From the IMG/VR virus record IMGVR_UViG_3300036402_000117, positions 1 through 44,524 of that record: a DNA stretch of 44,524 bases, one strand, 5' to 3'. Source of the stretch: a virus. The position numbers were made by a program, and so were the translations under genes. The stretch's first letter is position 1, and each line of letters starts with the position of its first letter. Below the pieces are notes generated by a model that made no database searches, had not been told where the DNA came from, and saw only the letters and a list, made by a program, of their open reading frames with translations. Shown here piece after piece: positions 12,831 to 44,524 of this stretch.

Positions 12831-12845
12831 GCACTTGCGGCACTC

Positions 12846-13121
12846 CTTCTGGCATCACCCCACCCCGCGCCCATGCCAGAAGCCCTCATTTCAACTTCCA
12901 TGATTCCAACGCGTTACACGATCCGCTGACCCTTCTGGCGCTTCTGGCACTTCTGGCGGGGGGTAGGCCCCTCTCTAATAGAGGCGGGAGAAACGTGTAC
13001 CCCATGCCATAAGCACCAGAAGTACCAGAAGGTATTACTCACTTATCTAACTCTCTAATTACTCAACGACTTAGCCACCCTCCCCTTCTGGCACCGCTCG
13101 ACTCCCCTTCCCTGCCAGAAG
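12846..13121. repeat. Symmetrical iteron array, candidate replication origin
   Basis: This gene-free stretch (12831-13149) carries ten copies of a 9-bp unit CTTCTGGCA or its complement. An outer inverted pair sits at 12846-12854 and 12874-12882. Three head-to-tail units start at 12932, 12941 and 12950. Three in the opposite sense lie around 13005-13031 (the first is degenerate). A second inverted pair is at 13085-13093 and 13113-13121. Both outer pairs span exactly 37 bp with 19-base loops. An AT-rich segment lies at about 13033-13075, suited to strand opening. Position after the primase-helicase supports an origin; an operator array is the alternative. Confidence 0.7.
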
Positions 13122-13149
13122 TGACCGAATCCCTCCCCAGAGGATCCCG

Positions 13150-13587
13150 GTGGTTCAGCCGACGACACTCACGCTCTCCCTGCCAGAGCCGCCCTCGATC
13201 AACCAGATGCTGGAGCTGGCCATGAAGCGCACGAGGCGCTCCCGGTCCGGCGGCTGGATGAAACGGGCGGTGCCCGGCATCGTGTACGACCAGGCGCACG
13301 AGGCGTACGACCTCCAGTGCCTCGCCATGGCCCGCACAGCCGATCTCCTGCCACGCTGGGCGCCCTGGCGCCGCTGGGAGATCAGCAGCGTGCACTTTCG
13401 CTTACATGGGCTCCGAGACCTGCCTGAGCTGATGGCCGGCTTGAAGTGGCCCGTCGACTTCCTGGTGGCGCAACGCTACGTCGTCGACGACAGCCCCCGG
13501 GAGCTGCTCGCCGTCTGTCTGCCGACGCAGGCGATCGCTCGAGCGAACCGAGGGGTCACCATCACGATCCGTGAGGTGGCGGCGTGA
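13150..13587 (+). CDS. RusA-like Holliday junction resolvase, divergent
   Basis: A 145-aa protein from GTG 13150, with AGAGGA at 13138-13143. It opens with LTLSLPEPPSINQML, the beta strand and P-x-S-x-N start typical of RusA. A later KWPVDFLVAQRYVVDDSPREL carries acidic residues where RusA has its metal-binding Asp cluster. RusA cuts four-way junctions during phage recombination. The match is to pattern and size (RusA is about 120 aa), and not every catalytic Asp can be assigned, so this is a moderate call. Confidence 0.55.
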   Translation: MVQPTTLTLSLPEPPSINQMLELAMKRTRRSRSGGWMKRAVPGIVYDQAHEAYDLQCLAMARTADLLPRWAPWRRWEISSVHFRLHGLRDLPELMAGLKWPVDFLVAQRYVVDDSPRELLAVCLPTQAIARANRGVTITIREVAA

Positions 13588-13955
13588 TCGCCGCCGCCAC
13601 ACTATCACCCAACGCGGTACCGGCCAGGGCCAGTCGCTACCTCGTGTGGCAGGGCAAGGAGATCCTGCGCGGCGTCGGGTTCCTCGAGGGAGACGTCATC
13701 AAGTGCCCATCGCACCACGTCGTGCGGCCGGACATGCTGCTCCTGGGCGACGGCGTGATCGTGTGTGACAACCGTCCAGGGAAGGGACACGCCGCCTGCG
13801 GGGCGCTGATCTACATCCAGGTGATCGCCGGCCGCGGCGCCACGAAGCGCCTCTGGCTCGCCGACTGCACCCGCGCCGAGATGCGTGAGATCGAACGACT
13901 CGGCCTCGACGCGGATGGCGTCCGCGCCTACTTCGGTGCATCGTTCTCGCGCTAG
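13584..13955 (+). CDS. Hypothetical protein with possible zinc site
   Basis: A 123-aa protein from GTG 13584 (GTGA overlap with the RusA-like gene). The middle has IKCPSHH...VCDNRPGKGHAACG, a Cys/His set that could bind zinc. Beta strands surround it (LVWQGKEILRGVG, LIYIQVIAG). No family is recognised. Confidence 0.5.
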   Translation: MIAAATLSPNAVPARASRYLVWQGKEILRGVGFLEGDVIKCPSHHVVRPDMLLLGDGVIVCDNRPGKGHAACGALIYIQVIAGRGATKRLWLADCTRAEMREIERLGLDADGVRAYFGASFSR

Positions 13956-13990
13956 TCGTCCCCCCTTCGTCCCTCACCAGGTAACGCGCC

Positions 13991-14248
13991 ATGAATCTCT
14001 GTTGGATCATCCCGCTTGCCGGTGGATCCGAGAAGCGTGACGTACAAGCGGCGGACCTGAAGGAGTTGCTGGCTTCCGGCTATCATGAATGGCGCCTCGT
14101 GTGTCATCGAGCGAGCGGCCCGCGAGAGATCACGCTGTACGCCCAAGGCGATGGGAAGACACCGCCGTCTGCGATCGAGGCGGCGAAGGGCGCGCGCCAC
14201 TTCTTCGGTGAGTGCGAGACAAACGAGGTGTTCAGGCCACACACCTGA
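13991..14248 (+). CDS. Small hypothetical protein
   Basis: An 85-aa protein from ATG 13991. It mixes short strands and helices (LKELLASGYHEWRLVCHRASG, REITLYAQGDG). No family or motif is recognised. It is the last gene before the promoter and leader region that precedes the packaging genes. Confidence 0.5.
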   Translation: MNLCWIIPLAGGSEKRDVQAADLKELLASGYHEWRLVCHRASGPREITLYAQGDGKTPPSAIEAAKGARHFFGECETNEVFRPHT

Positions 14249-14260
14249 GCAGCTGACATC

Positions 14261-14290
14261 TTGCGCGCTCGCTCGTCTCTGACGTAGACT
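14261..14290 (+). promoter_or_regulatory. Candidate late promoter before the packaging genes
   Basis: TTGCGC (14261-14266), an 18-base spacer and TAGACT (14285-14290) resemble -35 and -10 boxes, though each is weak. The TAGACTG word recurs at the same place before the second copy of the leader (35417-35423). That repetition is the best support for a real promoter. Confidence 0.4.
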
Positions 14291-14300
14291 GGTCCACATA

Positions 14301-14387
14301 GGGCAGCTCGACCGCCCACCCTAGCCGCCGTACCTGACACCGGCACCACTGACTCCTCTCACGAGGACGTCTGTTGGTGCCGGTGTC
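14301..14387 (+). promoter_or_regulatory. Structured leader, copy 1 (two hairpins joined by a conserved linker)
   Basis: A short hairpin (GGGC 14301-14304 with GCCC 14314-14317) is followed by a linker containing ACCCTAGCCGCCGTA. Then a 13-bp perfect stem (14336-14348 with 14375-14387) is topped by an inner TCCTC/GAGGA stem. A 32-base stretch (14316-14347) matches 35444-35475 with one difference. The A-T closing pair of the main stem is C-G in the other copy, so the stem base pair is conserved although the bases differ. A terminator, attenuator or antitermination site are all possible. Confidence 0.6.
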
Positions 14388-14389
14388 GT

Positions 14390-14794
14390 TTGCGTTTCCG
14401 GGAGCCACGTTCTGATCTGCCGTCTCGCCCCCCGCGCCCGTGCCCGCACCCTGGCTGCCCTCAGCTTACTGATGGCGGCCGCTGCGCTGCCCACCAGCGC
14501 GAGCAGCGCCGAGCCGAGGACGCGTACCGCGGGACCTCGAGCGAGCGTGGCTACGATCCCCGATGGCGACGATACCGCGCAGCCTACCTACGCACTCACC
14601 CGCTCTGCCGTGCCTGCGGAGCTCGCGGACGCGTGGTGGCTGCGACGGTCGTCGACCACATCGTCGCGCACAAGGGCGACCAGGCACTCTTCTGGGACCC
14701 GCAGAACCATCAGCCGCTCTGCCGCTCGTGTCACGGGCGCAAGTCGGCCACCGAGCCAGGCGGACGCGCGCACCGGCCCGAGTGGGCAGGATGA
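14390..14794 (+). CDS. HNH endonuclease of the packaging module
   Basis: An HNH nuclease of about 134 aa, the type encoded beside P27-like terminases. It has Cys pairs at CPHPGC and CAAH, then YDPRWRRYRAAYL, CRAC, and the HNH core TVVDHIVAHKG with Asp89-His90, Asn106 in PQNHQPL, and CRSCHGRK. In HK97-type phages such HNH proteins work with terminase in cutting the cos site. The start is uncertain: TTG 14390 is the first codon of the frame, directly after the leader hairpin, and later alternative codons also exist. Confidence 0.8.
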   Translation: MRFREPRSDLPSRPPRPCPHPGCPQLTDGGRCAAHQREQRRAEDAYRGTSSERGYDPRWRRYRAAYLRTHPLCRACGARGRVVAATVVDHIVAHKGDQALFWDPQNHQPLCRSCHGRKSATEPGGRAHRPEWAG

Positions 14795-15415: not shown

Positions 15416-15819
15416 TGCCATGGCCCCTTCGTCTCTACCCCTCGCACCAGGCCGCGCGCGACGCCCACGGCTTCGTGCCGGTCGGCGCGATGTGGCCTGT
15501 CGACGTGGATTACGTCGAGCAGTGGCTCAGCGTCTGGGCCGATAATGTCGCGCCGAAGTACCTGCGCGACTGGAAGGACACGCGCCCGCCGATGTTCGTG
15601 AAGCTGCCGGACGGCACGGAGTTCTGTATCGACACCCGCGCGCGGAGCCGCGAACTCGGGCCCCACGGCGAGGGCTGGACCGTCACCGGCGAGCCGCCGG
15701 CCGTCACGCTGGAGCCGTCGATCAATATCGTCGGCAGCTACCACGGCTACATCACCGCGGGCGTCATCACGGACGATTGCGAAGGGCGCACCTTCCCCAA
15801 CGCGCGAGGCTTCGAATGA
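15415..15819 (+). CDS. DUF6527-like protein between terminase genes
   Basis: A 134-aa protein. The C-terminal half has GWTVTGEPPAVTLEPSINIVG, then YHGYITAGVITDDCEG, which resembles the DUF6527 pattern (W-x-V-x-G, PTLxPSI, then a G-containing strand). Proteins of this family are small, phage-linked and uncharacterised. The ATG lies on the terS stop and the end overlaps the terL start, so it is embedded in the packaging operon. Confidence 0.5.
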   Translation: MPWPLRLYPSHQAARDAHGFVPVGAMWPVDVDYVEQWLSVWADNVAPKYLRDWKDTRPPMFVKLPDGTEFCIDTRARSRELGPHGEGWTVTGEPPAVTLEPSINIVGSYHGYITAGVITDDCEGRTFPNARGFE

Positions 15820-17573
15820 CCGAGTCTCGCGACTACGCCGCGATCGCGCTGCAGTATGCGCGCGACGTTGTCGATGGCACCCGTGCCGCGTGCAAGCTGG
15901 CGATCGCCGCATGCCAGCGGCAGCTCGACGACCTCGCCCGCCAGGAGACGCCCGGCTTCCCCTTCCGGTACGAGCCCGCTCGCGGGGCGCGTATCTGCCG
16001 GATGCTCGATCTGCTGCCGCACATCAAGGGGCGGTGGAAGACGAAGACGATCCGCCTCGAGCCGTGGCAGATCTTCATCCTGATGGTCGTGTTCTCGTGG
16101 GCCTGGGCGACCGCGGGCGCCGCGGATCCCGCGCTGCGCGAGAAGGACGGGCTGCGCCGCTTCCGCACCGTCTACGAGGAGGTGCCGCGCAAGAACGCGA
16201 AGTCGACGAAGGCCGCTGGCGTCGGGCTCTACATGCTCGGCCCCGATGGCGAGGAGGGCGCCGAGTGCTACTCGGCGGCCACGACGAAGGACCAGGCGCG
16301 GATCGTGTTCGATGCCGCGCGCGCGATGGCGCGGAAGACCCCGGAATTCTGTGACCGGTTCGGCGTGGAGATCGGCACGCACGCGCTCACGGTCCCGGCC
16401 TCGGAGTCCACCTTCAAGGCGCTCTCGAGCGAAGACAACTCGCTCGACGGACTCAACCCGCACGTCGTCATCATCGATGAGCTCCACGCCCACAAGACGC
16501 GGGGCGTGTACGACGTGCTCGAAACCGCAACCGGCGCGCGCGCGCAGTCGCTCCTCTGGACGGTCACCACCGCGGGGAGCAACCGCGCCGGGATCTGCTA
16601 CGAGGTGCGCACTTACGCCACGAAAGTGCTCGACGGCTCGACCGTCGACGAGACCTTCTTCGCGATCATCTACACGATCGACGAGGGCGACGACTGGACG
16701 GATCCGGCGGTGTGGGCGAAGGCGAACCCGAACTATGGGGTGTCGGTCTTCCCCGACGACATCGCGCGGCTCTGTCGGAAGGCGCAGGAGATGCCGAGCG
16801 CCCAGCCCAACTTCCTCACGAAGCGGCTGAACGTCTGGGTCAACGCCGACAGCCCGTGGATGGACATGCGCCGCTGGGACAAGGGCGCCGTGCCCGGGCT
16901 CTCGATCGACGACTTCGCCGGCGAGGACTGCTTCGTCGCGGTCGATCTGGCGAGCAACGTCGACATCGCGGCCAAGCTCTACCTCTTCCGCCGCCTGGTC
17001 GACGAGACGAACAAGGCCGGCGAGACGGAGCAACACCTCCACTACTACCCCTTCCTCCGCGCCTACCTGCCCGAGGACGTCGTCGAGGAATCCGACAACA
17101 GCCAATACAAGGGCTGGGCGAGCTCCGGTCGCCTGATCACCACGGACGGGAACATCATCGATCAGAATGCCATCCAGGACGATCTCCGGCTGGCGAAGGA
17201 TCAGTACCGGATCCGCGAGGTCGCGTACGACCCGTTCCAGGCGACGAAGTTCGCGACGGAGCTGCTCACCGAAGGGTTCCCCATGGTGGAGATGGGCGCC
17301 ACGGTGAAGAACTTCTCCGCGCCCATGAAGGAGATTGAGGCCTTGGTGCGCGCCGGCCGCCTGCACCACGACGGTGACCCGGTGCTCGCCTGGATGATGT
17401 CGAACGTGGTGTGCCACGTCGACAAGAAGGACAACGTCTTCCCGAACAAGCAGACGGCGAAGAACAAGATCGACGGCGCCGTCGCGCTGATCATGGCGGT
17501 CGGTCGCGCGATGCACGCGCCCGCGCCGGTCCGCAGCGTCTACGAGGATCGCGGCGTGAGGTCCTTCGGATGA
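15816..17573 (+). CDS. terL: Terminase large subunit (packaging ATPase and nuclease)
   Basis: A 585-aa Terminase_1-type protein. The ATPase domain has LEPWQIFI (about 81-88), a Walker A-like loop VPRKNAKST at 123-131, and Walker B VVIIDE at 217-222 followed by HAHK. The nuclease domain carries FVAVDLASNVDIAA, then AYDPFQAT and a late KNKIDGAVALIMA, the Asp residues expected for its metal site. It pumps phage DNA into the procapsid and cuts it at cos or pac ends. The ATG overlaps the previous stop and the end overlaps the portal start (ATGA). Confidence 0.95.
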   Translation: MTESRDYAAIALQYARDVVDGTRAACKLAIAACQRQLDDLARQETPGFPFRYEPARGARICRMLDLLPHIKGRWKTKTIRLEPWQIFILMVVFSWAWATAGAADPALREKDGLRRFRTVYEEVPRKNAKSTKAAGVGLYMLGPDGEEGAECYSAATTKDQARIVFDAARAMARKTPEFCDRFGVEIGTHALTVPASESTFKALSSEDNSLDGLNPHVVIIDELHAHKTRGVYDVLETATGARAQSLLWTVTTAGSNRAGICYEVRTYATKVLDGSTVDETFFAIIYTIDEGDDWTDPAVWAKANPNYGVSVFPDDIARLCRKAQEMPSAQPNFLTKRLNVWVNADSPWMDMRRWDKGAVPGLSIDDFAGEDCFVAVDLASNVDIAAKLYLFRRLVDETNKAGETEQHLHYYPFLRAYLPEDVVEESDNSQYKGWASSGRLITTDGNIIDQNAIQDDLRLAKDQYRIREVAYDPFQATKFATELLTEGFPMVEMGATVKNFSAPMKEIEALVRAGRLHHDGDPVLAWMMSNVVCHVDKKDNVFPNKQTAKNKIDGAVALIMAVGRAMHAPAPVRSVYEDRGVRSFG

Positions 17574-28369: not shown

Positions 28370-31300
28370 ATGGCGCGCACGCAGACCACCGCCCAAGCCA
28401 ACGCCAACGCCGCGCCGCGCCGGAAGGAGTTCACCCGCGTCTTCGTCCAGAATCCGGACGGCGGGATGACCGACGTCTCCGCGTATCTCGTCTCGGCCGA
28501 TCCTGACGCGTCGATCGACCAGCCGATCGCCGGGATGACCATCCGGTTCCGGCGCGACATGGGCCCGACGCTCTCGCTCTCGCCGCTCCGGACGGACTCC
28601 ACCCTCAACCGCAACGCCGCACTCGCCTACGCGCCACTCCTCGACGTCGCCCGCGCGGTGTACGTCGAGGTCGCGCTGCTCGACCCCTCGGTAGCCACCA
28701 CCCCAGCGGCCGGCGACTGGCAGCGGATCTTCCAGGGCACCTTCGACGTGGTCGACCCGGCCGGCGGGGGCGAGGAGGTGATCTGCACCGCGCGTGATCT
28801 GGGTGCGCGTCTGCAGGATACGACGCTCGAGCAGCCTACCGCGGTGGTCGTCGCCGGCGGCGCGACGCTGTCGATGGAAGCGGCGATCCAGCAGGTGCTC
28901 GACACGGCCTTCGGTGCCGGAGTGATCCCGCTCTACACGCCGACGTCGCCGAGCTACACGGTCACGCGGTTCGGCTATCAGCGCGAGCCGGTCTACGACG
29001 CGATCCTGCGCCTGGTGCAATCGATCGGGTGGGACTGCCGGTTCCTCTGGGACTCCGGCACCTCGAGCTATCGCCTGACGCTCTACAATCCGCCGCGCAC
29101 GAAGACGGTCCCCGACCACACCCTGGGGCCGTCGCGGTACATCAGCCTCCGACGACTCTCGATCAGTCGCGCGAGTGTCCGGAACCGCGTGAAGGTCTTC
29201 TACACGAGCCCGACCTTCGCGCGCGGCGACATCACCGTCAACGATACGGCGAGCCAGGCGCGCTACGGCATGCGCCCGATCGTCATCGAGGAGGCCGGCG
29301 ACAGCGTCATCGACACGCCGGCCGAGGCGACGACGATGGCGAACGCGCTCCTCGCCGATCTGAAGGACCCGAAGGCCGACGGCGAGTGCGAGATGCCGTT
29401 CTTCTGGCCGGTGGAGCTCGGGGACCTGATCCGGTTCTCCACCAATGGCGTCCACTTCAACAGCAACCAGGATCTCGCCGTCGTCGGGATCCGGCACTCG
29501 CTGGTGACAGCGCCTGGTCAGATCTCCAAGACGACGCTCACCCTCCGCGGCTCGCCGGCCGGCGGGTATCGCGCCTGGATGGCTCGGGCGGGCGTGGGCA
29601 TCGGGACGGGGCAGACGATCCAGCCGCCCTGGGTGTCGGTCTCCCCGTTCGACCAGAGCCGCGGGAACGAGAACGTGACGCTGAATGGGGGGGCCGCGAG
29701 CAATGCGCCGGCCACGCCGTTCCAGTGGCGGCAGCGCGAGACGGTGAACGGGGTCGTGGGCGCCTGGTCAGGCTACTCCTCTGCGGTGCTCCCCCAGCTC
29801 ATCACCATTCAGCGTGACCCGTACTACCAGAAGTACACCGAGTTTGAGGTGCTGCAGGCGGACGGCCAGAGTACTCCCGTCGTCTGGCCGACGCTGAGCA
29901 AGATTGGCTTCCTCACCGGCCACTCGACTGGCCATGCGATCGGCCAGGTGACGATCGACGACGGCCGCGCCGGCGCCGGTGGGATGCCGACGCCGCGCGG
30001 ACGGCTGGCCACCGATCCGATCTACGACGCGACGGGCGCGACGCCGCTGATCGACCCGGTGACCCGTCGCATCCAGCTCGGGCTGCTCATGCCTGGTGGA
30101 ACGTCACCCGATGTGACCGAGCGGGGTGGGAACAAGGGCGACACAGCCCTCGACTCGGGCAATTCGATCCTCGCAAGCTATGTCGACTTCTCGCGGTCGT
30201 TCCTGAACAAGCATCTGGGGTACGTCCCCGACGATGCGACGTCGGACCGGCGCTCCGCCACGGCGAATGAAAAGACCGGTGGCTCCCGTGGCTTCACGGC
30301 GATCGACTCCGGCGGCGTCGCGATCGCCGCGGCGCTCGACTTCACGCGGAGCTACACGGGCAAGCACTTCGGCAACGTACCCGACGACGCCACCTCTGAC
30401 CGGCGCGCCGCGACCGCGAATGAGAAGACGGGCGGGGGACGCGGGTTCATCGGTTTTGACTCCTCGAGCATCGTCGTCGCGGGCTCGGTCGACTTCGCCC
30501 GGAGCTACACCGGCAAGCACTTCGGCAACGTCCCGGATGATGCGACCTCAGATCGTCGGGCCGCGACGGCAAATGAGAAGACCGGCGGATCGCGTGGGTT
30601 CAGCGCGATCGACTCCGGCGGCGTGGCCGTAGCGGCGGCAGTGGACCTGTCGCGGGGCTACACGAACAAGCACATGGGGTACATCCCTGACGACGCCACC
30701 TCGGATCGCCGGGCCGTCACCCTCGTGCAGAAGAACGCCGCCACGCGTGCCGATGCGGCGCTCGACGGATCGAACAAGTTGCAGACCGGCGTGACCACTG
30801 GCGCGACGGCTGCCGATGGCGTGGCCGGCATCGAGAGCGGAAAGGGCGCTAAAACGAAGGCGGCGCGAGGCGCTGGACACGCCGGCGCCCAGGTCACCAC
30901 CGACAATACCCGAGGTGGAACGGGCGGGCTGCCAACACCGGGCGCGCGTGTGCACTCGGAACCGATCTACGACGCGACGGGCGCGACGCCGCTGATCGAT
31001 CCGGTGAGGCGGGAGATCCTGAGCGGCCTCGGGATCGGAACCGGTGTCCGGAGCGCCTCTGACTTCGCCGTCAAGAATGCGGCCGGGGCCCTCGCCTTCG
31101 GCACCAACCGCCACAATGACGAGAAGGTCGCGACGAACGGGGTCACGAAGACTTTCGATTTCGACTTCGATCACGCCCCGCAGATCCGAGCCATTCCGCA
31201 ATCGTTCCTGCTGCCGGGGACCAATTCCACGGTGGACCGGAAGATCGAGTTCGCCGCGATCGACATCACGGTGAGCTCCTTCAAGGCGCGCTCCGTGTTG

Positions 31301-31798
31301 ACGACCGGCTCATCCAGTGCTGCGCAGACGGATGATTTCTCGGCATCGCAGAACACCACGCCCGGCAGCGCTGGGGGCGTGGCGCTTCAGGCGCCGGGGG
31401 CCGTGGCCTACTGTCAGCTCGCCAGCGCCACGGCGATCTCGACCAACTACACCGGATACTATGACGTCAACACCGTCGACATGGACCCGGCGAACACCGT
31501 CTACGTGGACTTCTACCGCAACGATTCGGCGGGGTCGACGACGTGGACGCTGATCGGGGGAGCCTCGTACGGATCCGGGATCAACACCACTGGCATCCCG
31601 TTCCCCTTCACCGCGGCGCTTGGCGCGAACTGGGACATCCGGATGGTCATCAGCTACGCCTTCACGCCCAGTCCCACCTTTACCCGGGCGACGATCACCG
31701 CCGATCGCGTCGACTACGACGCGGTCACCGGAGGGACGGAGGTGTCGCTTACCCCCGCCGGAACCGGCGTCCTCTACCAAGCCATGGAGGCCCCGTGA
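28370..31798 (+). CDS. Large tail tip or baseplate hub protein with tandem repeats
   Basis: A 1142-aa protein. Residues 1-400 resemble a phage hub/tail tip domain: KEFTRVFVQNPDGGMTDVSAYLV, IFQGTFDVVDPAGGGEEVICTARDLGARLQD, and an IRLVQSIGWDCRFLWDS-like stretch. About residues 585-790 hold four 51-residue repeats, each with KHxGxxPDDATSDRR. Flanking these is a duplicated segment around PIYDATGATPLIDPV. The C-terminal 250 residues are a beta-rich domain (FDFDFDHAPQIRAIPQSF, TGYYDVNTVDMDPANTVYVDF) that may contact the host. Repeats in such proteins often form a stalk and vary between strains. Confidence 0.8.
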   Translation: MARTQTTAQANANAAPRRKEFTRVFVQNPDGGMTDVSAYLVSADPDASIDQPIAGMTIRFRRDMGPTLSLSPLRTDSTLNRNAALAYAPLLDVARAVYVEVALLDPSVATTPAAGDWQRIFQGTFDVVDPAGGGEEVICTARDLGARLQDTTLEQPTAVVVAGGATLSMEAAIQQVLDTAFGAGVIPLYTPTSPSYTVTRFGYQREPVYDAILRLVQSIGWDCRFLWDSGTSSYRLTLYNPPRTKTVPDHTLGPSRYISLRRLSISRASVRNRVKVFYTSPTFARGDITVNDTASQARYGMRPIVIEEAGDSVIDTPAEATTMANALLADLKDPKADGECEMPFFWPVELGDLIRFSTNGVHFNSNQDLAVVGIRHSLVTAPGQISKTTLTLRGSPAGGYRAWMARAGVGIGTGQTIQPPWVSVSPFDQSRGNENVTLNGGAASNAPATPFQWRQRETVNGVVGAWSGYSSAVLPQLITIQRDPYYQKYTEFEVLQADGQSTPVVWPTLSKIGFLTGHSTGHAIGQVTIDDGRAGAGGMPTPRGRLATDPIYDATGATPLIDPVTRRIQLGLLMPGGTSPDVTERGGNKGDTALDSGNSILASYVDFSRSFLNKHLGYVPDDATSDRRSATANEKTGGSRGFTAIDSGGVAIAAALDFTRSYTGKHFGNVPDDATSDRRAATANEKTGGGRGFIGFDSSSIVVAGSVDFARSYTGKHFGNVPDDATSDRRAATANEKTGGSRGFSAIDSGGVAVAAAVDLSRGYTNKHMGYIPDDATSDRRAVTLVQKNAATRADAALDGSNKLQTGVTTGATAADGVAGIESGKGAKTKAARGAGHAGAQVTTDNTRGGTGGLPTPGARVHSEPIYDATGATPLIDPVRREILSGLGIGTGVRSASDFAVKNAAGALAFGTNRHNDEKVATNGVTKTFDFDFDHAPQIRAIPQSFLLPGTNSTVDRKIEFAAIDITVSSFKARSVLTTGSSSAAQTDDFSASQNTTPGSAGGVALQAPGAVAYCQLASATAISTNYTGYYDVNTVDMDPANTVYVDFYRNDSAGSTTWTLIGGASYGSGINTTGIPFPFTAALGANWDIRMVISYAFTPSPTFTRATITADRVDYDAVTGGTEVSLTPAGTGVLYQAMEAP
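30125..30736 (+). repeat. Four tandem 153-bp repeats inside the tail tip gene
   Basis: Units start at 30125, 30278, 30431 and 30584, each coding for 51 aa. The middle two copies are the most alike; the first and last have drifted. All carry PDDATSDRR near the same place. The duplicated segment at 30017-30062 and 30962-31007 matches at 45 of 46 bases and brackets the array. Copy number is likely to vary by slippage or recombination. Confidence 0.9.
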
Positions 31799-33441: not shown

Positions 33442-34794
33442 ATGGCACTCTCTCGATCCTCCGTCCTGCACTACTGGTCCAGCCGGTACGGCCCGCTCCC
33501 GGTCATTGGTGGCAAGCCGGTACACTCGCGCAACTCGGCTGGTTTCGTCGCCGACGGGCGCGGCGAGTGGTACAACGCCATCATCAACACGCCGCGCTTC
33601 GCGACGGAGGTTGACAAGTCGACCCCGGCGAACGAGCGGCGGGCGATGCTTCTCCTGGAAGGCGCCCGACCCAATCAGCTCACGCGCAGTAACGATCTCT
33701 CCCATGCGGCGTGGACGACCGCATCCGGCACGGGCACCGCGTCGCTCAACGCCATCGGGATGGACGGTTCGCCGAACGCCGCGACCACGCTGACCGATAG
33801 CGATGCCGCCGGCTTCTACGGCCGTTATAACTCGGTGACCATCGCCAACGACGGCGACACCCTTGCCGCGCGATTCTGGATTCTCAAGGACAGCAACACC
33901 ACTCGCTTCCCGATCCTCGTCTTCGGCCTGCAGGGTGGCGTGACGCCAAAGACGCAGGACATCATGCTCAACACCTCAACCGGCGCCATCGCGTCCAGCT
34001 CGATCTCCGGGGGCGGCAGTGCCGGGGCGTATGCCGTGTTCGACGATGGATTGTACTGGCAGATCGTAATCCACCTGCAGAATAACGCGACCGGCAATAC
34101 GACCGCGCGCGCGTCGGTGTACCCGGCAGGCGGATCGGTGATGGGCACGGAAGCGGCCGCTTCGACCGGCAGTTGCGTCGTCGGCAACGTACACGTCGAG
34201 CCCAACGCGACAGCAGGCATCACGCGCGGCACGCCGATCTTCACCGCTGCGGGCGCCGCAAGCCGCTCGGCTGACAGCTTCTACTGGAACTTCCCGGCGC
34301 CACCACAGGCGATGATGATCCACTCTCGGCATGTCGAGAGTGGCGGCGATTCGGCACGCCGCATATTCGAGATCAGCAGCGCCACTGAGACCGGCCCGGT
34401 CTTCGCCGCCTTTATCTCCGGCGGTTTCTATGCCATCCAGCACTACAACGGGGTTGGATCGGTCACGCAGACCCTTGGCGCGGCGCCGGCCCTGGGCGAT
34501 ACGGTCGACTTGGCCGCGCTCCTCACGCCGACCGGGCAGGTGCAACTCATTCAGTCGATCAACGGCGCGGCCGTGAGCACCTCCGCGCTATCCGGTGCGC
34601 TCTCTCTCCCGGCCGCGTGGGGAGATACGAAGCTCTGGCTCGGCGCCGTGGGTGCCGTTGCCAGCTCATTCGGGCTGAATCGGCATGCAGAGATTCGCGC
34701 AGTTAAGTACGGCGACGTAGCGGCCGTGACGTCGCAGGGCATCATGGACGAGCTCCGCGGGTTCGAGCTCGGCCCCAACGGAGATCAGCTCTAA
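33442..34794 (+). CDS. Tail fibre or receptor-binding protein
   Basis: A 450-aa protein. It contains LLLEGARPNQLTRSNDLSHAAWT, a motif shared with many phage fibres and carbohydrate-binding tail proteins. Beta-sandwich segments follow (AARFWILKDSNTTRFPILVFGLQGG, YWQIVIHLQNNATGNTTARASVYPAGG) and a later jelly-roll-like SRSADSFYWNFPAPPQAMMIHSRH. It probably decides host binding, together with the tail tip gene. Its end overlaps the next start (TAATG). Confidence 0.7.
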   Translation: MALSRSSVLHYWSSRYGPLPVIGGKPVHSRNSAGFVADGRGEWYNAIINTPRFATEVDKSTPANERRAMLLLEGARPNQLTRSNDLSHAAWTTASGTGTASLNAIGMDGSPNAATTLTDSDAAGFYGRYNSVTIANDGDTLAARFWILKDSNTTRFPILVFGLQGGVTPKTQDIMLNTSTGAIASSSISGGGSAGAYAVFDDGLYWQIVIHLQNNATGNTTARASVYPAGGSVMGTEAAASTGSCVVGNVHVEPNATAGITRGTPIFTAAGAASRSADSFYWNFPAPPQAMMIHSRHVESGGDSARRIFEISSATETGPVFAAFISGGFYAIQHYNGVGSVTQTLGAAPALGDTVDLAALLTPTGQVQLIQSINGAAVSTSALSGALSLPAAWGDTKLWLGAVGAVASSFGLNRHAEIRAVKYGDVAAVTSQGIMDELRGFELGPNGDQL

Positions 34795-35390
34795 TGCACC
34801 GCATCATCCACACGCTCCGGCAGATCGCCGCGGCCGACCTCCCGACCGTTACGTCGCTCGACGGCACCACGCGGACGATGACGGCCGGCGAGCTGCTCAA
34901 CGTCGGGATCGTCCACCTCCACGACGACGTGTACGACTGCGTCGAGCAGCACCGGAGCGACGACGACGAGGCCGCGGCGACCGGCGTGCGGACCTGGGCG
35001 CCGCACGGCGAGCCGCTGCCTGGGACGCCGATCAGCGCCGGCTCGCACCGGGAGCGCTACGCCCGTGTCCCGGCGGAGCATGCGCCCAAGGTGTTCCGAG
35101 CGCAGGTCATCCGCTCCGCTGATCCGGCGGCACCCGCCGCGACGATCGTCACGGCGAACCTCACCGAGGTGGCGACCGCGATCGCGGAGTACGTCGGCGA
35201 CGTCTCCGGCGCGCCGCTCGTCGATCTCTCTGGCCCGGCGGCTGTGCTCAAGGAGGCGCAGCGCCTGGTCCAGATCCCTGACAACGGGATCGACCGACAC
35301 GTCGTTCCGATGGCCACCGTCGACCCCGGCGATGTCGTCGAAGCCGACCGGATCATCCCGCATCGCTGGCACGGGGAGTCCCACCGCTAA
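34794..35390 (+). CDS. Hypothetical protein after the fibre gene
   Basis: A 198-aa protein from ATG 34794. The N-terminal stretch (RIIHTLRQIAAADLPTVTSLDGTTRTMTAGELLNVGIVHLHDDVYD) is mixed helix and strand, and the rest is Ala/Pro/Asp-rich. A tail-fibre assembly or accessory role is only suggested by location. The gene is the last of the tail block. Confidence 0.5.
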   Translation: MHRIIHTLRQIAAADLPTVTSLDGTTRTMTAGELLNVGIVHLHDDVYDCVEQHRSDDDEAAATGVRTWAPHGEPLPGTPISAGSHRERYARVPAEHAPKVFRAQVIRSADPAAPAATIVTANLTEVATAIAEYVGDVSGAPLVDLSGPAAVLKEAQRLVQIPDNGIDRHVVPMATVDPGDVVEADRIIPHRWHGESHR

Positions 35391-35416
35391 CGCTGGCTCG
35401 TTTGAAACACCCGTAG

Positions 35417-35511
35417 TAGACTGAGACCAGGCCCGCTGACGGGCCACCCTAGCCGCCGTATCTGACACCGGCACCCAACGACCCTCCCCAGGGTCGACGG
35501 GTGCCGTCGTC
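35417..35511 (+). promoter_or_regulatory. Structured leader with promoter-like word, copy 2, before the lysis genes
   Basis: TAGACT (35417-35422) is followed by a hairpin GCCCG/CGGGC (35431-35443), the conserved linker with ACCCTAGCCGCCGTA, and a stem GACACCGGCACCC (35464-35476) with GGGTGCCGTCGTC (499-511 of the same line), 11 of 13 pairs. An inner CGACCCT/AGGGTCG stem is present. The 32-base core at 35444-35475 matches 14316-14347 with one difference. See copy 1 for possible roles. Confidence 0.6.
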
Positions 35512-35541
35512 GTTTCTGGACCTTCTCCGGACGAACCGCCG

Positions 35542-35877
35542 ATGACGCTGCTCTCCCTCCTCCAAACCGCCCAGGCTGTCGCCGTGGCTGCGCAGGATTC
35601 GGCTGCGGGCGACTACCTCGTGCGCGGCGCCATCGCGCTCATCCTCGGGCTCCAGGCGTGGAGCATCCGGACGGTCAACAAGACGCGCGAGGACCTGGGC
35701 GTGATCACCCAGGCGCTCTTCGGCCGCCGCGGTGACAATGGCATCGAGCGCACGGTCGAAGCGCACGGGGCCGAGCTCGTCGACCACGACCGGCGGCTCA
35801 CACAGAGCGAGGGTCGCCTTGACCGGATCGATGTCGAGCGACGGCCGTTGGCTCCGCATCGCGGAGGGATCACATGA
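35542..35877 (+). CDS. Membrane-anchored coiled-coil protein, lysis block
   Basis: A 111-aa protein from ATG 35542. A membrane helix (YLVRGAIALILGLQAWSI, about 25-42) is followed by a charged coil (RTVNKTREDLGVITQALFG...ELVDHDRRLTQSEGRLDRID). This layout resembles XhlA-like or holin-associated phage proteins. It is the first gene after the second structured leader and precedes a candidate holin and the endolysin. Role in lysis is inferred from order. Confidence 0.6.
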   Translation: MTLLSLLQTAQAVAVAAQDSAAGDYLVRGAIALILGLQAWSIRTVNKTREDLGVITQALFGRRGDNGIERTVEAHGAELVDHDRRLTQSEGRLDRIDVERRPLAPHRGGIT

Positions 35878-36170
35878 TCGACCTCCGTCGCCTCCTCGGC
35901 CTCCTTGCCTCGTTCCTCATCGGCCTTGGCCTCATCTGGTACGCCCACGAGCACCTCGAGCGGGAGCTCGCGCGGCCCGAGCGCTCGATGGCCCTGCTCG
36001 CGATCTACGGCGTGATCGGGCTGCTCGGCATGCTGATCGTGCCGACGATCCGTGACCGCGTGATCCCCGCCGCAAAGACCGGCTTCACCCTCGCGAGCCT
36101 GGGCCGCCGCGCGTATGACGGCAAGGCGGTGGTCGACGACGCGCCTCCTTCCAAGGACAGTGCCCCATGA
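35874..36170 (+). CDS. Putative holin
   Basis: A 98-aa protein from ATG 35874 with two membrane helices (LLGLLASFLIGLGLIWYAH, and MALLAIYGVIGLLGMLIVP) and a charged, soluble C-terminus. Size and two-helix plan fit a class II-like holin. It lies immediately upstream of the endolysin. Holins are diverse, so the call rests on topology and position. Confidence 0.6.
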   Translation: MIDLRRLLGLLASFLIGLGLIWYAHEHLERELARPERSMALLAIYGVIGLLGMLIVPTIRDRVIPAAKTGFTLASLGRRAYDGKAVVDDAPPSKDSAP

Positions 36171-36691
36171 TCCCCGCCGAACTGCTTCGGACGGAGTCCT
36201 CGCTCGTCATCAACATCCTGCAGGCCTCGACGGACCTCATCGCGGTCTGCGAGGATCCGCCGGGATCCAACCGCGGCGAGGACATCGACGCCTGGGCGAA
36301 GAAGTTCGGGAGCCCGCCCGGCTCCTACTGGTGCGCGCTCATGCAGGGCGAGATCGCCGATCGTTCGCACTCCTGGCGGCCGACCCACGACGTCGGCAGC
36401 TGTGACGAGTGGTACCTGCAGGGCACGAAGGCGGGCCTCCTGATCATGGACCCGCGGCCTGGAGCGATCGTGCTGTACACGAACGGCACGCGCCTCGAGG
36501 GCGGGCGGTACGACGGCCGCCTCGACGCGACGCACATCGGCCGGGTGATCCGCGCGACGCCGGTGCCGATGGCGATCGAAGGCAATACCACGCTGGGCAA
36601 GTACGACCGGAATGGGTTCGTCTCCACGCTGAAGCAGATCGAGAAAGCGCGAGTGCTCTGCTACCTGGCCCCGGCGCCGAGGGCCGCATGA
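36167..36691 (+). CDS. Endolysin, CHAP/NlpC-P60-like peptidase
   Basis: A 174-aa protein with the Cys-His arrangement of amidohydrolase endolysins: Cys56 in GSYWCALMQGEIAD, then CDEWYLQG, PRPGAIVLY, and His123 in DATHIGRVI followed by EGNTTLG. These enzymes cut peptidoglycan peptide bonds. There is no signal peptide, so it needs the upstream holin to reach the wall. It overlaps both neighbours by 4 bases. Confidence 0.8.
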   Translation: MIPAELLRTESSLVINILQASTDLIAVCEDPPGSNRGEDIDAWAKKFGSPPGSYWCALMQGEIADRSHSWRPTHDVGSCDEWYLQGTKAGLLIMDPRPGAIVLYTNGTRLEGGRYDGRLDATHIGRVIRATPVPMAIEGNTTLGKYDRNGFVSTLKQIEKARVLCYLAPAPRAA

Positions 36692-38156: not shown

Positions 38157-38188
38157 GACGGCCAGCGCCGACATGAGCGCTGGCCGTC
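38157..38188. terminator. Strong hairpin between - strand genes, likely bidirectional terminator
   Basis: GACGGCCAGCGC (38157-38168) pairs perfectly with GCGCTGGCCGTC (38177-38188), a 12-bp stem. Short T-runs lie on both sides (GTTTCC on the - strand side, TGTC on the + side). It would end the immunity transcript coming from 38847 downwards. Confidence 0.6.
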
Positions 38189-38265: not shown

Positions 38266-38847
38266 TCACCGATCGGAAGAGGTGGCCTTCTTCTTCGGGG
38301 TCGCCTTTTCCTTCATCCGCCATTCGATCGACCCGCCCATCAGTTCCTTGAAGTCGATCTGGGTCGGGCGTAATGCCGGATTCTCCGACATCATCACCTT
38401 AAACGGTGAAGTCTGGCCAGGCAGAATCGGGTTCAGCTCAATGAGTGTCGACTCACTGGTCGCGTGCTCGCCGCTCTTCGTCGAAAAGGTTACCAACGCC
38501 TCAACGTTTTTCAGCGACTGCGCGGAGATGTTCTTGACTCGCCCTTCAACAATTGCGTACCCATACTCGGTGTGCCAGCTCCACGACTGCAACTCGAGCA
38601 ATGGAACTGCCGGCGCCGCGACAGCGGCAGAACTGTACGAGGATGGCGAGGATGACGATTTGTTCCCACCAACGACTCCACCGATGACCGCGAGGACGAT
38701 GATCGACAGACATCCCCACGCCACGCATCCGGTCTGTTGTTTGGTCGCGGCTACCGGCGCTGGTTTATGAGGGCGCCCACAATTGGGGCACGCGGCGGCG
38801 GCATCCGAGAATTCCTTTCCGCAGTCCGGGCACTTGATCAAGGCCAT
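38266..38847 (-). CDS. Zinc-ribbon membrane protein with extracellular FxLYD-like domain
   Basis: A 193-aa protein. Cys6, Cys9, Cys20 and Cys23 form a zinc ribbon at the N-terminus (CPDCGKEF, CPNCGRP). A membrane helix follows at about 43-60 (WGCLSIIVLAVIGGVVGG), then a Ser-rich linker and a beta domain with GRVKNISAQSLKNVEALVTFSTKSG, the pattern of FxLYD-type domains. A hand count of one line gave 57% GC, lower than the neighbours. It is the third gene of the leftward immunity operon. A conversion or exclusion function is plausible but not shown. Confidence 0.65.
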   Translation of the reverse strand: MALIKCPDCGKEFSDAAAACPNCGRPHKPAPVAATKQQTGCVAWGCLSIIVLAVIGGVVGGNKSSSSPSSYSSAAVAAPAVPLLELQSWSWHTEYGYAIVEGRVKNISAQSLKNVEALVTFSTKSGEHATSESTLIELNPILPGQTSPFKVMMSENPALRPTQIDFKELMGGSIEWRMKEKATPKKKATSSDR

Positions 38848-38873
38848 TGGCGCTCTCCTGTTCGATCATAGGT

Positions 38874-39350
38874 CTAGCTCAGTGGCTTCCGAATCTGCAG
38901 GCGGCGCAGGTTCCGGAGTGCATGCTGCAGCGCAGTCTCCTGCTCCGGGATGGGGATGAACGGTCGCGACCGCGTCGGGCCCATCAGCACCAGCTCGGCG
39001 AAGAGCTCCGCATCATCCTCCCGCGGATCCGCGCCCCAGTGGGTGTCCATGTTGTAGACGCGCTCCCAGCGGTCGTGCTGCGTATCGTGGTGACACCACA
39101 GATGCCCGAGCTCGTGCGCGCCCAGGTAGAGGTGTCGCCGGCGCGGGGCGCCCGGGCTGAGGAGGATCGCCCACCGGCCGCCGTACGGCACCAGCTGCGC
39201 GGGGCGCGGCATCTCCACCGGCGACTGGCGGATCTTCACCTGCTCGCGCTCGCAGATCCGAGTGAACGCGGGCCACGTGAGGGGACGGGCGAGCTCCGGG
39301 TGCAGGTCGCGCTTGCGGGCGATGACGTCCGCGATCTGCTCCACCTTCAC
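38874..39350 (-). CDS. ImmA/IrrE-family metallopeptidase
   Basis: A 158-aa zinc peptidase. The catalytic motif is HELGH at residues 79-83 (ARRRHLYLGAHELGHLWCHH nearby), and an acidic partner lies in DDAELFAELVLM near 122-133. ImmA-type enzymes cleave the repressor encoded beside them when the host is stressed, and so induce the element. Its start overlaps the repressor gene by 4 bases (ATGA on the - strand), so the two are translationally coupled. The pair resembles ImmR/ImmA of ICEBs1. Confidence 0.85.
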   Translation of the reverse strand: MKVEQIADVIARKRDLHPELARPLTWPAFTRICEREQVKIRQSPVEMPRPAQLVPYGGRWAILLSPGAPRRRHLYLGAHELGHLWCHHDTQHDRWERVYNMDTHWGADPREDDAELFAELVLMGPTRSRPFIPIPEQETALQHALRNLRRLQIRKPLS

Positions 39351-39901
39351 GAGATCTTCCTCCCGCGTTCGTTGAGCTCCGGGATCACGACGCCCTCCCC
39401 GATCGCCTTCATGCCGCGCAGCACCTGGTCTTCGTTGAACTCACTCAACGCGCCCCCCTTGTAAAAGGTGAAGAGCTGCGGGGACTGCATGAGACTCAAG
39501 GCCTCATCGATCTCCTCGTCCGACGCGCCGCCTCTGATCAGGCGCAACCGGAACTCGCCGAGGTACTCGCGAACCGAGAGCGGAAGGGCGCGGGCGTGCC
39601 GCGGCGCACTCCGCGATAGTCTCGCGAGCTCGTCGGCCTCCCGAGCCATCTCGTCGTCGTCCTGGGGCACACTGGCTCCCTTAAGGTCTGCCGCGACCCT
39701 GAAGAGCTCGTCAATGGGGAGCTCCAGCGCGTGCGCGAGGGCGGAGAGTCGGCCGGACGGAAGCGAGATCGCCCCGGCTTCGTACTTCACCACGGTCTGC
39801 TTATGGACGCCAAGCCGTTGCGCGAGCTCAGCTTGGGTGATCCCGAGCTTCTCGCGCTGCCGCTTAATCGATTCGGCCAGCCAGTTCGTCGCCACAGCCA
39901 C
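39347..39901 (-). CDS. XRE-family phage repressor (CI-like, ImmR-type)
   Basis: A 184-aa protein. Helix-turn-helix at about residues 9-60: SIKRQREKLGITQAELAQRLGVHKQTVVKYEAGAISLPS. The C-terminal half (about 70-184) is acidic and helical, with DDDEMAREADELARLS and no LexA-like Ser/Lys protease motif. That agrees with cleavage by the adjacent ImmA-type enzyme instead of self-cleavage. Start is GTG 39901 (alternative GTG 39895). It diverges from the Cro-like gene with operator half-sites between them. Confidence 0.85.
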   Translation of the reverse strand: MAVATNWLAESIKRQREKLGITQAELAQRLGVHKQTVVKYEAGAISLPSGRLSALAHALELPIDELFRVAADLKGASVPQDDDEMAREADELARLSRSAPRHARALPLSVREYLGEFRLRLIRGGASDEEIDEALSLMQSPQLFTFYKGGALSEFNEDQVLRGMKAIGEGVVIPELNERGRKIS

Positions 39902-39912
39902 AGACGCCCCAT

Positions 39913-39966
39913 GTTACCGGGCCAGGGTTACACCCCTTGACGGCGTAACCCTGACAGTGTTACCCT
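39913..39966. promoter_or_regulatory. Repressor operator and rightward early promoter
   Basis: GTTAC half-sites occur at 39913-39918, 39924-39931 (AGGGTTAC), 39945-39952 (GTAACCCT, the exact complement) and 39959-39966 (GTTACCCT). TTGACG at 39937-39942 with TACCCT at 39961-39966 (18-base spacing) makes a rightward promoter overlapped by these sites. Its leftward partner is not clear. Confidence 0.65.
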
Positions 39967-39996
39967 ATGTCACCGCTGCACGCTTACTCGCACCGG

Positions 39997-40245
39997 ATGA
40001 CGATGACCTCGTACCCCCGTAAGGCTGACAAGTCAGGCAAGCTAACGCCGCAGCAGCTGCGCCGAAAGATCGCGCTGCTCGAGGCTGGTTTGTCGATCGC
40101 TGACGTTGCGCGGAAGGCAGGCGTATCGCGCCAGACCGCGTGGGAAGTGCTGATGGACAAGTGCGCGAGCCAGCGGGTGCAGGAGGCGTACGCGCACGCA
40201 ACGGGCAAGGCGCTCGACTTCCTCTTCCCTTCCCGCGCGGCCTAG
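39997..40245 (+). CDS. Cro-like small HTH protein
   Basis: An 82-aa protein using ATG 39997 (ATG 40003 also possible). The HTH reads LRRKIALLEAGLSIADVARKAGVSRQTAWEVL at about residues 21-52, followed by CASQRVQEAYAHATGKALDFLF, a tail like those of small Cro/Ner-type regulators. ATG 39967 is in frame but sits on the -10 box, so it is unlikely to be used. It faces the repressor and should set the lytic direction. Confidence 0.7.
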   Translation: MTMTSYPRKADKSGKLTPQQLRRKIALLEAGLSIADVARKAGVSRQTAWEVLMDKCASQRVQEAYAHATGKALDFLFPSRAA

Positions 40246-42831: not shown

Positions 42832-43112
42832 TGCCGACTCCGGACGCCACCGAGCGCATGGCCCGCATCCGCGCGCGCGCGACTGCGCACGACGAAGCGA
42901 TCGAGTCGGTGAAGTGGCCGACGGCCGCGCAGCTCGCCGCGCGCTGGAATGTCAGCCTGACCACGGTCTACGAGATCCCGCGAGAGCGGCTGCCCTACAA
43001 GGAGTTCGGCGGCGGCCAGAAGCCGCGCCGCCGCTATCGCCCGACCGACGTCGCCGCCTTCGAGGCCGACGACACCGCGTACACCACCGCCAAGCCGGCG
43101 AAGAGCGCCTGA
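42831..43112 (+). CDS. Excisionase-like small HTH protein
   Basis: A 93-aa protein. The HTH is PTAAQLAARWNVSLTTVYEIPRERLPYKEFGGGQKPRRRYRPTDVAAFE, a MerR/Xis-type helix with a wing. Its position directly before the integrase (shared ATG/TGA) is typical of an excisionase that turns integration into excision. The assignment rests on fold and neighbour. Confidence 0.65.
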   Translation: MPTPDATERMARIRARATAHDEAIESVKWPTAAQLAARWNVSLTTVYEIPRERLPYKEFGGGQKPRRRYRPTDVAAFEADDTAYTTAKPAKSA

Positions 43113-44350
43113 TGTACAAGAACTCGGCGACCGGCTATTGGGAGGCGGACATCCGACGCGAGAAGATCGCGCCGCGTCTGCACGTCTCCTACGGCACGAA
43201 GAAGAAAGACGAGGCGGCGCGTCTGCACGCGGCGGTCCTCCGGCTGTTCAAGGAGGGCAACCGGGACGCCATCGATGCGCTCCGCGCGGGGCGTCTGCCG
43301 GTCGGCGAGATCGCGCGGCTCCAGGAGGAGGGGAAGCCCCTTTTCGCGCCGCCCGTCGCTGCCGGCCCGCTGCCCTGGCCGAGCGTGCGCACGGCCGTCG
43401 AGGAGTACCTGGCGTGGCTCGACACCAATCCGCGCAAGACCGCGGGCACGCACCGGTTCGCGAAGACCATGTGCGATCGCTTCGTCAACTGGCTGGGCGA
43501 CGATGCCGAGCTCCCGCTCGACCAGATCCCGACGCGACGCGTGAGCGACTATCAGGCGTCGCTCATCAAGGGCGAGGCCGCGGTCAACACCGTCACCGCG
43601 GCGGTCTGGCGCGTGGGGACGGTGTTCCGCTGGCACCGCGACCGCGAGCTGCGGGAGGCCCAGGAGGAGAAGCGCACGCCGCGGTTCCTGCACGTCCCAC
43701 TGGATCCGGACACGATCTCGACGGCGCGCACCCATCGGACGCGCTATCTCACCGAGGCAGAGGCCGAGCGACTGCTCGCCGCGTGCCCGGGCCGGCTCCT
43801 CTGCCCCGTCGCCATCGGACTCTTCGCCGGGCTCCGGATCGACGAGGTGATGCACCTGCGCCCGGCGTACGACGTCGACCTCACCCTCGGCCTACTGACC
43901 GTCCAGGAGCAGCCGGGCTGGCGCCCGAAGTCGGGGAAGCGGCGCTTCGTGCCGATCGCCGCACCCCTGCGCCTACTCCTCGAGGCGCAGCTCGCGCGCT
44001 ACGCCTCCGAGGAATGGCTCGTACCGTCCTCGGTCGACGCGACGCGGCCGCAGAACCCGAACAGCTTCATGGTGCACTTCCGGCGGATCGTCGAAGACGC
44101 CGAGCTCGTCGCGGGCCGGAAGGACCCGAAGGGCGTCGTTTTCCACACGCTGCGCCATACGTTCGCGAGCTGGCTCGCCACCCGCGGCGTCGACCTGTAC
44201 ACGATCGCCCAGCTGCTCGGCAACTCGCTCAAGCAGGTGGAGCAGACGTACGCGCACCTCTCTCCCGACTTCAAGGCGGCGGCGATCAGCAAGCTGGCCG
44301 GCGTTGTGGCGGTGCCGTCCCTGCCGGATCGGACGGAGGGCGGCGCATGA
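43112..44350 (+). CDS. int: Tyrosine integrase
   Basis: A 412-aa site-specific recombinase. The N-terminal arm-binding and core-binding domains (about 1-205) precede the catalytic domain, with Arg242 (FAGLRIDEV), Lys273 (RPKSGKRR), His345-x-x-Arg348 (HTLRHTF) and Tyr380 (EQTYAHL). At the usual second-His position the protein has Asn371 (LLGNSLKQ), a known substitution. It lies about 75 bases from attR and would recombine attP with the host site at 126-150. Start is ATG 43112, overlapping the excisionase-like stop. Confidence 0.9.
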   Translation: MYKNSATGYWEADIRREKIAPRLHVSYGTKKKDEAARLHAAVLRLFKEGNRDAIDALRAGRLPVGEIARLQEEGKPLFAPPVAAGPLPWPSVRTAVEEYLAWLDTNPRKTAGTHRFAKTMCDRFVNWLGDDAELPLDQIPTRRVSDYQASLIKGEAAVNTVTAAVWRVGTVFRWHRDRELREAQEEKRTPRFLHVPLDPDTISTARTHRTRYLTEAEAERLLAACPGRLLCPVAIGLFAGLRIDEVMHLRPAYDVDLTLGLLTVQEQPGWRPKSGKRRFVPIAAPLRLLLEAQLARYASEEWLVPSSVDATRPQNPNSFMVHFRRIVEDAELVAGRKDPKGVVFHTLRHTFASWLATRGVDLYTIAQLLGNSLKQVEQTYAHLSPDFKAAAISKLAGVVAVPSLPDRTEGGA

Positions 44351-44384: not shown

Positions 44385-44424
44385 AACAGCACTTTCCCCC
44401 TCACCGTGCCCCACGATGGGACAT

Positions 44425-44524
44425 GATTCACATGTGCGGCTCAGATTGCCGCACATCATTGCCGCTCGCGCTGCACTCGGTAATTCCAAGCCGACGCGCG
44501 CAGGCGGTCGGGCAAATATAGCCC
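44425..44524. repeat. attR: right copy of the prophage-flanking direct repeat
   Basis: Identical to 119-218 and extending to the last base of the window. The core inverted repeat is at 44432-44440 and 44448-44456 around TCAGATT. The integrase gene ends 75 bases upstream. The outer host flank is not visible. Confidence 0.85.

Follow-up and report, generated by a model that had tools for sequence, protein, structure and literature searches.

Genomic context of the leaders

The stretch of DNA analysed here ("the window") comprises positions 1-44,524 of IMG/VR record IMGVR_UViG_3300036402_000117 and holds a temperate phage of Gemmatimonadota, a poorly known phylum from soil; it is an apparently excisable Gemmatimonadaceae prophage integrated at etfB. 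Two similar leader sequences lie within it, and the parts of both leaders, the HNH and terminase genes, the three genes behind copy 2 and the hairpin at 38157 are all on the plus strand. Copy 1 precedes the HNH-terminase-portal-protease-capsid operon, in which the HNH endonuclease gene comes first (14390-14794; phrog_144, E 3e-37; PF01844; true start perhaps 14414) and the terminase large subunit is encoded at 15777-17573 (phrog_9, E 9e-173). Copy 2 (35417-35511) is located inside a 151-bp gap between the last tail-region gene (34794-35390) and a presumed lysis cassette of three overlapping genes (35542-36691). The first of these (35542-35877) is an open reading frame for a 111-aa protein with one hydrophobic stretch and no family match; the second (35874-36170) translates into a holin-like protein of 98 aa that has two hydrophobic stretches; and the third (36167-36691) encodes a presumed endolysin of 174 aa, in which CHAP-like motifs (WCA...HIG...EGNT) were recognized by eye and which had no family, PDB or phage match. 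The hydrophobic stretches and CHAP-like motifs make it plausible that these are lysis genes, as the first-pass annotation had called them, but the family libraries recognized neither the 98-aa nor the 174-aa protein. The predicted structure of the 174-aa protein was too poor for use.

Three small genes (13150-14248) close the early operon ahead of copy 1; going by position only, this is where one would look for the gene of a Q-like factor. Searches of 13150-13587, 13584-13955 and 13991-14248 against Pfam, NCBIfam and PHROGs returned no family match, and no homologues of these genes were found in phages, nor any of 13584-13955 in viral contigs. A single-sequence structure model of the 123-aa protein from 13584-13955 was uninformative (pLDDT 36). 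Among the early genes scanned, none matched Q, N or other antiterminator families.

The ends of the window document the integration site. Positions 1-128 are host DNA, matching the 5' part of etfB in a Gemmatimonadaceae genome at 92% identity, and the left end is therefore attL; a degenerate EtfB pattern matched Gemmatimonadota only, and EtfB was recognized by eye in the translated flank. The right end (44411-44524) repeats 105-218, but there the common core GATTCACATG is preceded by phage DNA, which marks this end as attP. With attL on the left and attP on the right, the contig seems to derive from both the integrated and the excised form. An integrase gene (phrog_1, 42914-44350) adjoins the att site. 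Elsewhere, an AT-richer intergenic stretch past the primase gene (12845-13122) carries seven copies of CCTTCTGGCA in 280 bp (0-1 mismatch, both orientations), a motif found ten times in the window against 2.2 expected; judging by this iteron-like arrangement, the stretch is likely a replication origin. Three tandem 153-bp repeats (30208-30721, 74-76% alike), corresponding to 51-aa protein repeats, lie within the gene for a 1142-aa tail protein (28370-31798). The immunity region (38266-40245) includes minus-strand genes for an HTH_3 repressor (39347-39901), an M78/ImmA-like peptidase (38874-39350) and a zinc-ribbon protein (38266-38847). An HTH gene at 39967-40245 faces the minus-strand immunity genes, and an inverted repeat, CAGGGTTAC/GTAACCCTG, at 39920-39956 is operator-like in appearance.

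Two leaders with a common layout

Each leader fills about 150-165 bp ahead of a late operon, in identical orientation, and both are built from an upstream CGCTnGCTCGTyT block, the -10-like GTAGACTG, a 5' stem that varies, a fixed linker of about 19 nt, a long GC-rich hairpin and a GTCGTTT end. The upstream block of copy 2 (CGCTGGCTCGTTT, 35391-35403) is identical at 11 of 13 positions to that of copy 1 (CGCTCGCTCGTCT, 14266-14278), which was located by segment comparison and pattern search. The -10-like block GTAGACTG lies at 35416-35423 in copy 2 (TAGACT at 35417-35422), with a putative start site near 35429, and a pattern search placed its counterpart in copy 1 at 14284-14291 (TAGACT at 14285-14290). 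Folding of copy 2 then yields a 5' hairpin, GGCCCG-CUGA-CGGGCC (35430-35445), whose sequence is not common with copy 1 (p 0.33); the corresponding stem of copy 1 (GGGC/GCCC, 14301-14317) is weak and has an alternative pairing, UAGGG/CCCUA, with the linker.

The 32-nt core, consisting of the linker CCACCCTAGCCGCCGTATCT and the left hairpin arm GACACCGGCACC, follows at 35444-35475 in copy 2 and, by pattern search, at 14316-14347 in copy 1. Direct comparison bore out the match of 31 of 32 bases given in the first-pass annotation, with T for C as the sole difference. The core pattern had no match in 100 shuffles, the chance expectation being none, and no further copies were found on either strand of the window with up to three mismatches. 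A self-BLAST of the window likewise paired the two leaders (48 nt, 87.5%, E 1.2e-8). Oriented like copy 1 and placed like it with respect to the operon that follows, copy 2 is a genuine second copy, and the two together form a real, well-defined leader element of one orphan phage.

The main hairpin of copy 2 (35464-35511) keeps 11 of 13 stem pairs (35464-35476 with 35499-35511), the number first noted, and contains an inner 7-bp helix (35479-35485/35490-35496); its stem is interrupted by a 2x2 internal loop at 35467-35468. In copy 1 (14336-14387) all 13 pairs form (14336-14348 with 14375-14387), again around an inner helix. The conserved tail GTCGTTT of copy 2 (35509-35515) carries a short U run and is terminator-like. 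The interval 35417-35511, as originally delimited, indeed begins at the -10-like TAGACT and finishes with the hairpin, but falls short on both sides, as the conserved block reaches upstream to about 35391 and the GTTT extends to 35515.

Conserved and diverged segments

Having two copies allowed conserved parts (linker, both long-hairpin arms and -10-like block) to be separated from variable ones (5' stem and loop), as the first-pass annotation had anticipated. In a segment-wise comparison, the upstream segments, including CGCTnGCTCGTyT and GTAGACTG, were kept (p 0.004), as were the core (p 0.0005) and the long hairpin's right arm plus the adjoining GTTT (14 of 16 identical, p 0.003). Similarity was absent in the 5' stem (p 0.33), the loop (p 0.79) and the downstream sequence (p 0.91). 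Taken singly, the short upstream motifs are mildly unlikely to occur twice: CGCTNGCTCGT (CGCTnGCTCGT) occurs in the whole window only at 14266 and 35391, with 9 of 100 shuffles reaching two occurrences, and GTAGACTG only at 14284 and 35416, with 4 of 100 shuffles doing so. The spacing between the upstream and -10 blocks is 8 bp in copy 1 versus 15 bp in copy 2.

The only clean compensatory change within the hairpin affects the thirteenth main-stem pair (A-U in copy 1, C-G in copy 2); inner helices are present in both copies with differing sequences. Such mosaic conservation is the pattern predicted for an element that may act through RNA structure plus sequence. No relatives were found in the collections searched, and the evidence for selection is the contrast between kept and diverged segments within one genome.

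Folding and terminator-likeness

Both leaders folded better than all 200 of their shuffles (z -3.7 and -3.8). When 8,893 plus-strand segments of 60 nt were ranked by stability, the hairpin of copy 1 came first and that of copy 2 came 44th. Of the 5' hairpins, that of copy 2 is strong and that of copy 1 weak, so this stem does not count as firmly conserved. Among the 38 strong perfect hairpins of the window (9-bp seed), that of copy 1 and one at 38157 ranked highest for T content after the stem (4 of 8). This ranking fits terminator-like use, although the U run is short: both GC hairpins are followed by GUUU, giving a run of only three, and a scan for consensus terminators left copy 1 uncalled and called copy 2 weakly, on a smaller hairpin. 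No match to the sigma-70 consensus, and no consensus -35, was found at the leaders. The hairpin at 38157-38188, a perfect 12-bp GC stem situated after the lysis operon and before the immunity genes on the minus strand, is a likely terminator and, the lysis region and immunity genes being convergent, likely acts in both directions.

Search for relatives

The core was absent from 2.9 million viral contigs (IMG/VR), from about 85,000 genomes (GTDB, exact match), from named phages and plasmids (distant BLAST), from about 395 Gemmatimonadota genomes (up to three mismatches) and from 15 TerL-related viral records; the core-pattern search of viral contigs also gave four chance 16-mers, none accompanied by the leader hairpin. 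In none of these collections did it lie in unrelated coding DNA, which the first-pass annotation had said would mark it as a random repeat. A covariance model run on 179 Gemmatimonadaceae genomes reached at best 31 bits, a chance-level score compared with 100-112 for the real copies, and a comparison of the window with Rfam gave no hits above the gathering threshold, the best weak ones falling far below. Self-comparison of 14 TerL-related viral records revealed no repeated intergenic leader; one candidate, G478, was rejected because it lies within a coding region.

Queries with TerL, HNH, the 1142-aa tail protein and the 111-aa lysis-region protein identified no close phage. The closest terminase among the matches listed was 57% identical, and a terminase relative at E 1e-60 occurred in 2 of 394 genomes of the class. 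Because the collections hold no close relative, comparing the regions upstream of lysis genes in related phages gave nothing. Two further candidate explanations were rejected: a dispersed repeat of the REP or MITE type, given only two copies and none in 395 Gemmatimonadota genomes (three mismatches) or in the viral or genome collections; and a leader peptide or start-codon sequestration, given that the gene behind copy 2 starts 30 nt past the hairpin.

Discussion

We tentatively favour a reading that we regard as possible rather than probable, namely that both copies serve as a late-promoter leader carrying a terminator-like hairpin, through which the two late operons are controlled together by a common, Q-type trans factor. 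The leaders would be the start-proximal parts of two late operons, one for packaging, head and tail and one for lysis, each with a late promoter composed of the -10-like TAGACT and the shared upstream block. The first 90 or so transcribed nucleotides would present the fixed linker as a single strand and, directly after it, the strong GC hairpin with its short U run; polymerase should pause or terminate there, before it reaches the first gene. Release would depend on a trans factor common to both leaders, for which the most likely candidate is a protein that the phage makes late in its early operon. By recognizing the promoter block, the core or both, this factor would let polymerase through, so that both operons would be switched together. 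Q-type control is favoured by the presence of exactly two copies in the same orientation, one before each late operon, and by the retention of the -10 block, linker, both arms and GTCGTTT while the 5' stem and loop have been replaced yet remain foldable. Against it stand the lack of a match to any antiterminator family, the short UUU run, the missing consensus -35 and the unequal block spacing (8 versus 15 bp), unexpected of a fixed site for a protein; moreover, with only two copies, covariation amounts to one base pair, and there is no homologue in which to test conservation. That either copy acts on RNA polymerase, as the first-pass annotation considered, is plausible but was not supported by the searches, in which no Rfam family, no similarity to putL and no recognizable Q or N protein was found; we infer such action from the layout.

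Other explanations at the RNA level account for parts of the data. A protein-free, put-like RNA, whose two-stem leader binds RNA polymerase and enables read-through of later terminators (for copy 1, along a 21-kb late operon), would agree with the two-hairpin layout of about 90 nt right behind a promoter-like block, with two copies per phage and with the failure to recognize an antiterminator gene. We consider it doubtful, however, as the leaders lack sequence similarity to putL, put stems I and II are joined at one position (G35) instead of being set apart by a fixed 19-nt linker, the 5' stem of copy 1 is weak, put serves early operons, and a strong GC hairpin with UUU rather resembles a terminator. 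Equally doubtful is a stabilizer of mRNA 5' ends or an RNase processing site, with hairpins protecting or processing the late mRNAs and the linker as recognition site: a very stable hairpin does lie close to the presumptive 5' end of both mRNAs, but the shared upstream block, the -10 block and the strict linker would be left unexplained. The location of both copies exactly at operon junctions, and the similar perfect 12-bp hairpin that ends the last operon at 38157, could point instead to an insulator that mainly stops transcription from the upstream operon, the core being part of the terminator or of an overlapping promoter. This is unlikely, because only about 2-30 nt (depending on copy and start codon) separate hairpin and next gene start, too short for another promoter, so that the next operon would have to start ahead of its own terminator; in addition, plain terminators need no fixed 19-nt linker, and the 38157 hairpin lacks the core.

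The remaining alternatives place the signal in DNA or deny it a function. A phage regulator, either a late activator or a repressor, could bind the 32-bp core as a DNA site, with the hairpin incidental; strict conservation of the core, and retention of the copy 2 left arm even where two pairs are lost, would suit this idea. Conversely, the right arm and GTTT, 25 nt away, are kept (p 0.003), unlike the loop, and the core lacks a dyad and lies downstream of the -10 block; together these points make a DNA-level site quite improbable. That a 48-bp piece was recently duplicated without the copies having a common function would be compatible with there being two copies only and no relatives, but is very improbable: the core and arms have stayed alike whereas the loop, 5' stem and flanks have diverged past recognition, and both copies sit at equivalent operon starts.

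Beyond these, the leaders might represent a new class of polymerase-acting leader RNA in Gemmatimonadota phages, in which the fixed, unpaired linker between two hairpins, alone or with a phage factor, would license read-through and couple the packaging and lysis operons, a prospect we consider fairly unlikely. The literature searched yielded no account of transcription control in any Gemmatimonadota phage. A leader at both late operons offers a concrete two-copy test object for the timing of packaging and lysis and, if it acts on polymerase, would be a new read-through signal, made of RNA or of RNA plus protein, in a phylum far from the known ones.

Among known systems, the extended start-associated sequences (ESAS) of cluster K mycobacteriophages are phage-specific imperfect inverted repeats with a variable spacer that precede genes and are missing from the host (PMC3203893). 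The leaders resemble them in having imperfect inverted repeats with a variable spacer before genes and a left arm nearer to consensus than the right, and in being phage-specific and missing from the host. In contrast, ESAS occur in association with the SAS GGGATAGGAGCCC and at many genes, whereas only two copies occur here; allowing two mismatches, the SAS 13-mer GGGATAGGAGCCC matched the window twice against 1.1 expected, neither time near the leaders.

HK022 putL and putR are about 70 nt long, form two stem-loops and occur twice per genome (PMC9378689). Alike are the two copies per phage, the length below 100 nt and the two stem-loops close to a (here putative) promoter, of which the main hairpin is firm in both leaders and the 5' stem in copy 2 only. 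The leaders differ in their 19-nt linker, their association with late rather than early operons and their terminator-like second hairpin. Membership of the put family would also imply binding to the beta' zinc-binding domain of RNA polymerase and protein-free suppression of termination. No put relative was found, and blastn (word size 7) of both leaders against a 12-kb HK022 region gave no putL match, only a chance 13-mer elsewhere.

In Q-type control, a promoter, a Q-binding element, a -10-like pause and a terminator precede the late genes (PMC6606751). The lambdoid pR'/tR' regions with Q antitermination (lambda, phage 21 and 82) have in common with the leaders a terminator-like hairpin that comes soon after a promoter (putative in the leaders) and ahead of late genes, and the region behind the early operon matches the usual site of Q, by position only. 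Unlike these systems, the present phage has a copy at each of two separate late operons and a fixed transcribed core; no Q family was matched, and neither a clear direct-repeat site for Q nor a -10-like pause is evident. For the Q-binding element, which in Q-type leaders falls between -35 and -10, the candidate is CGCTnGCTCGTyT, upstream of TAGACT at two different spacings in the two copies. With its order of blocks repeated at both late operons, the arrangement most resembles a late promoter plus an early terminator that would be released by a trans factor.
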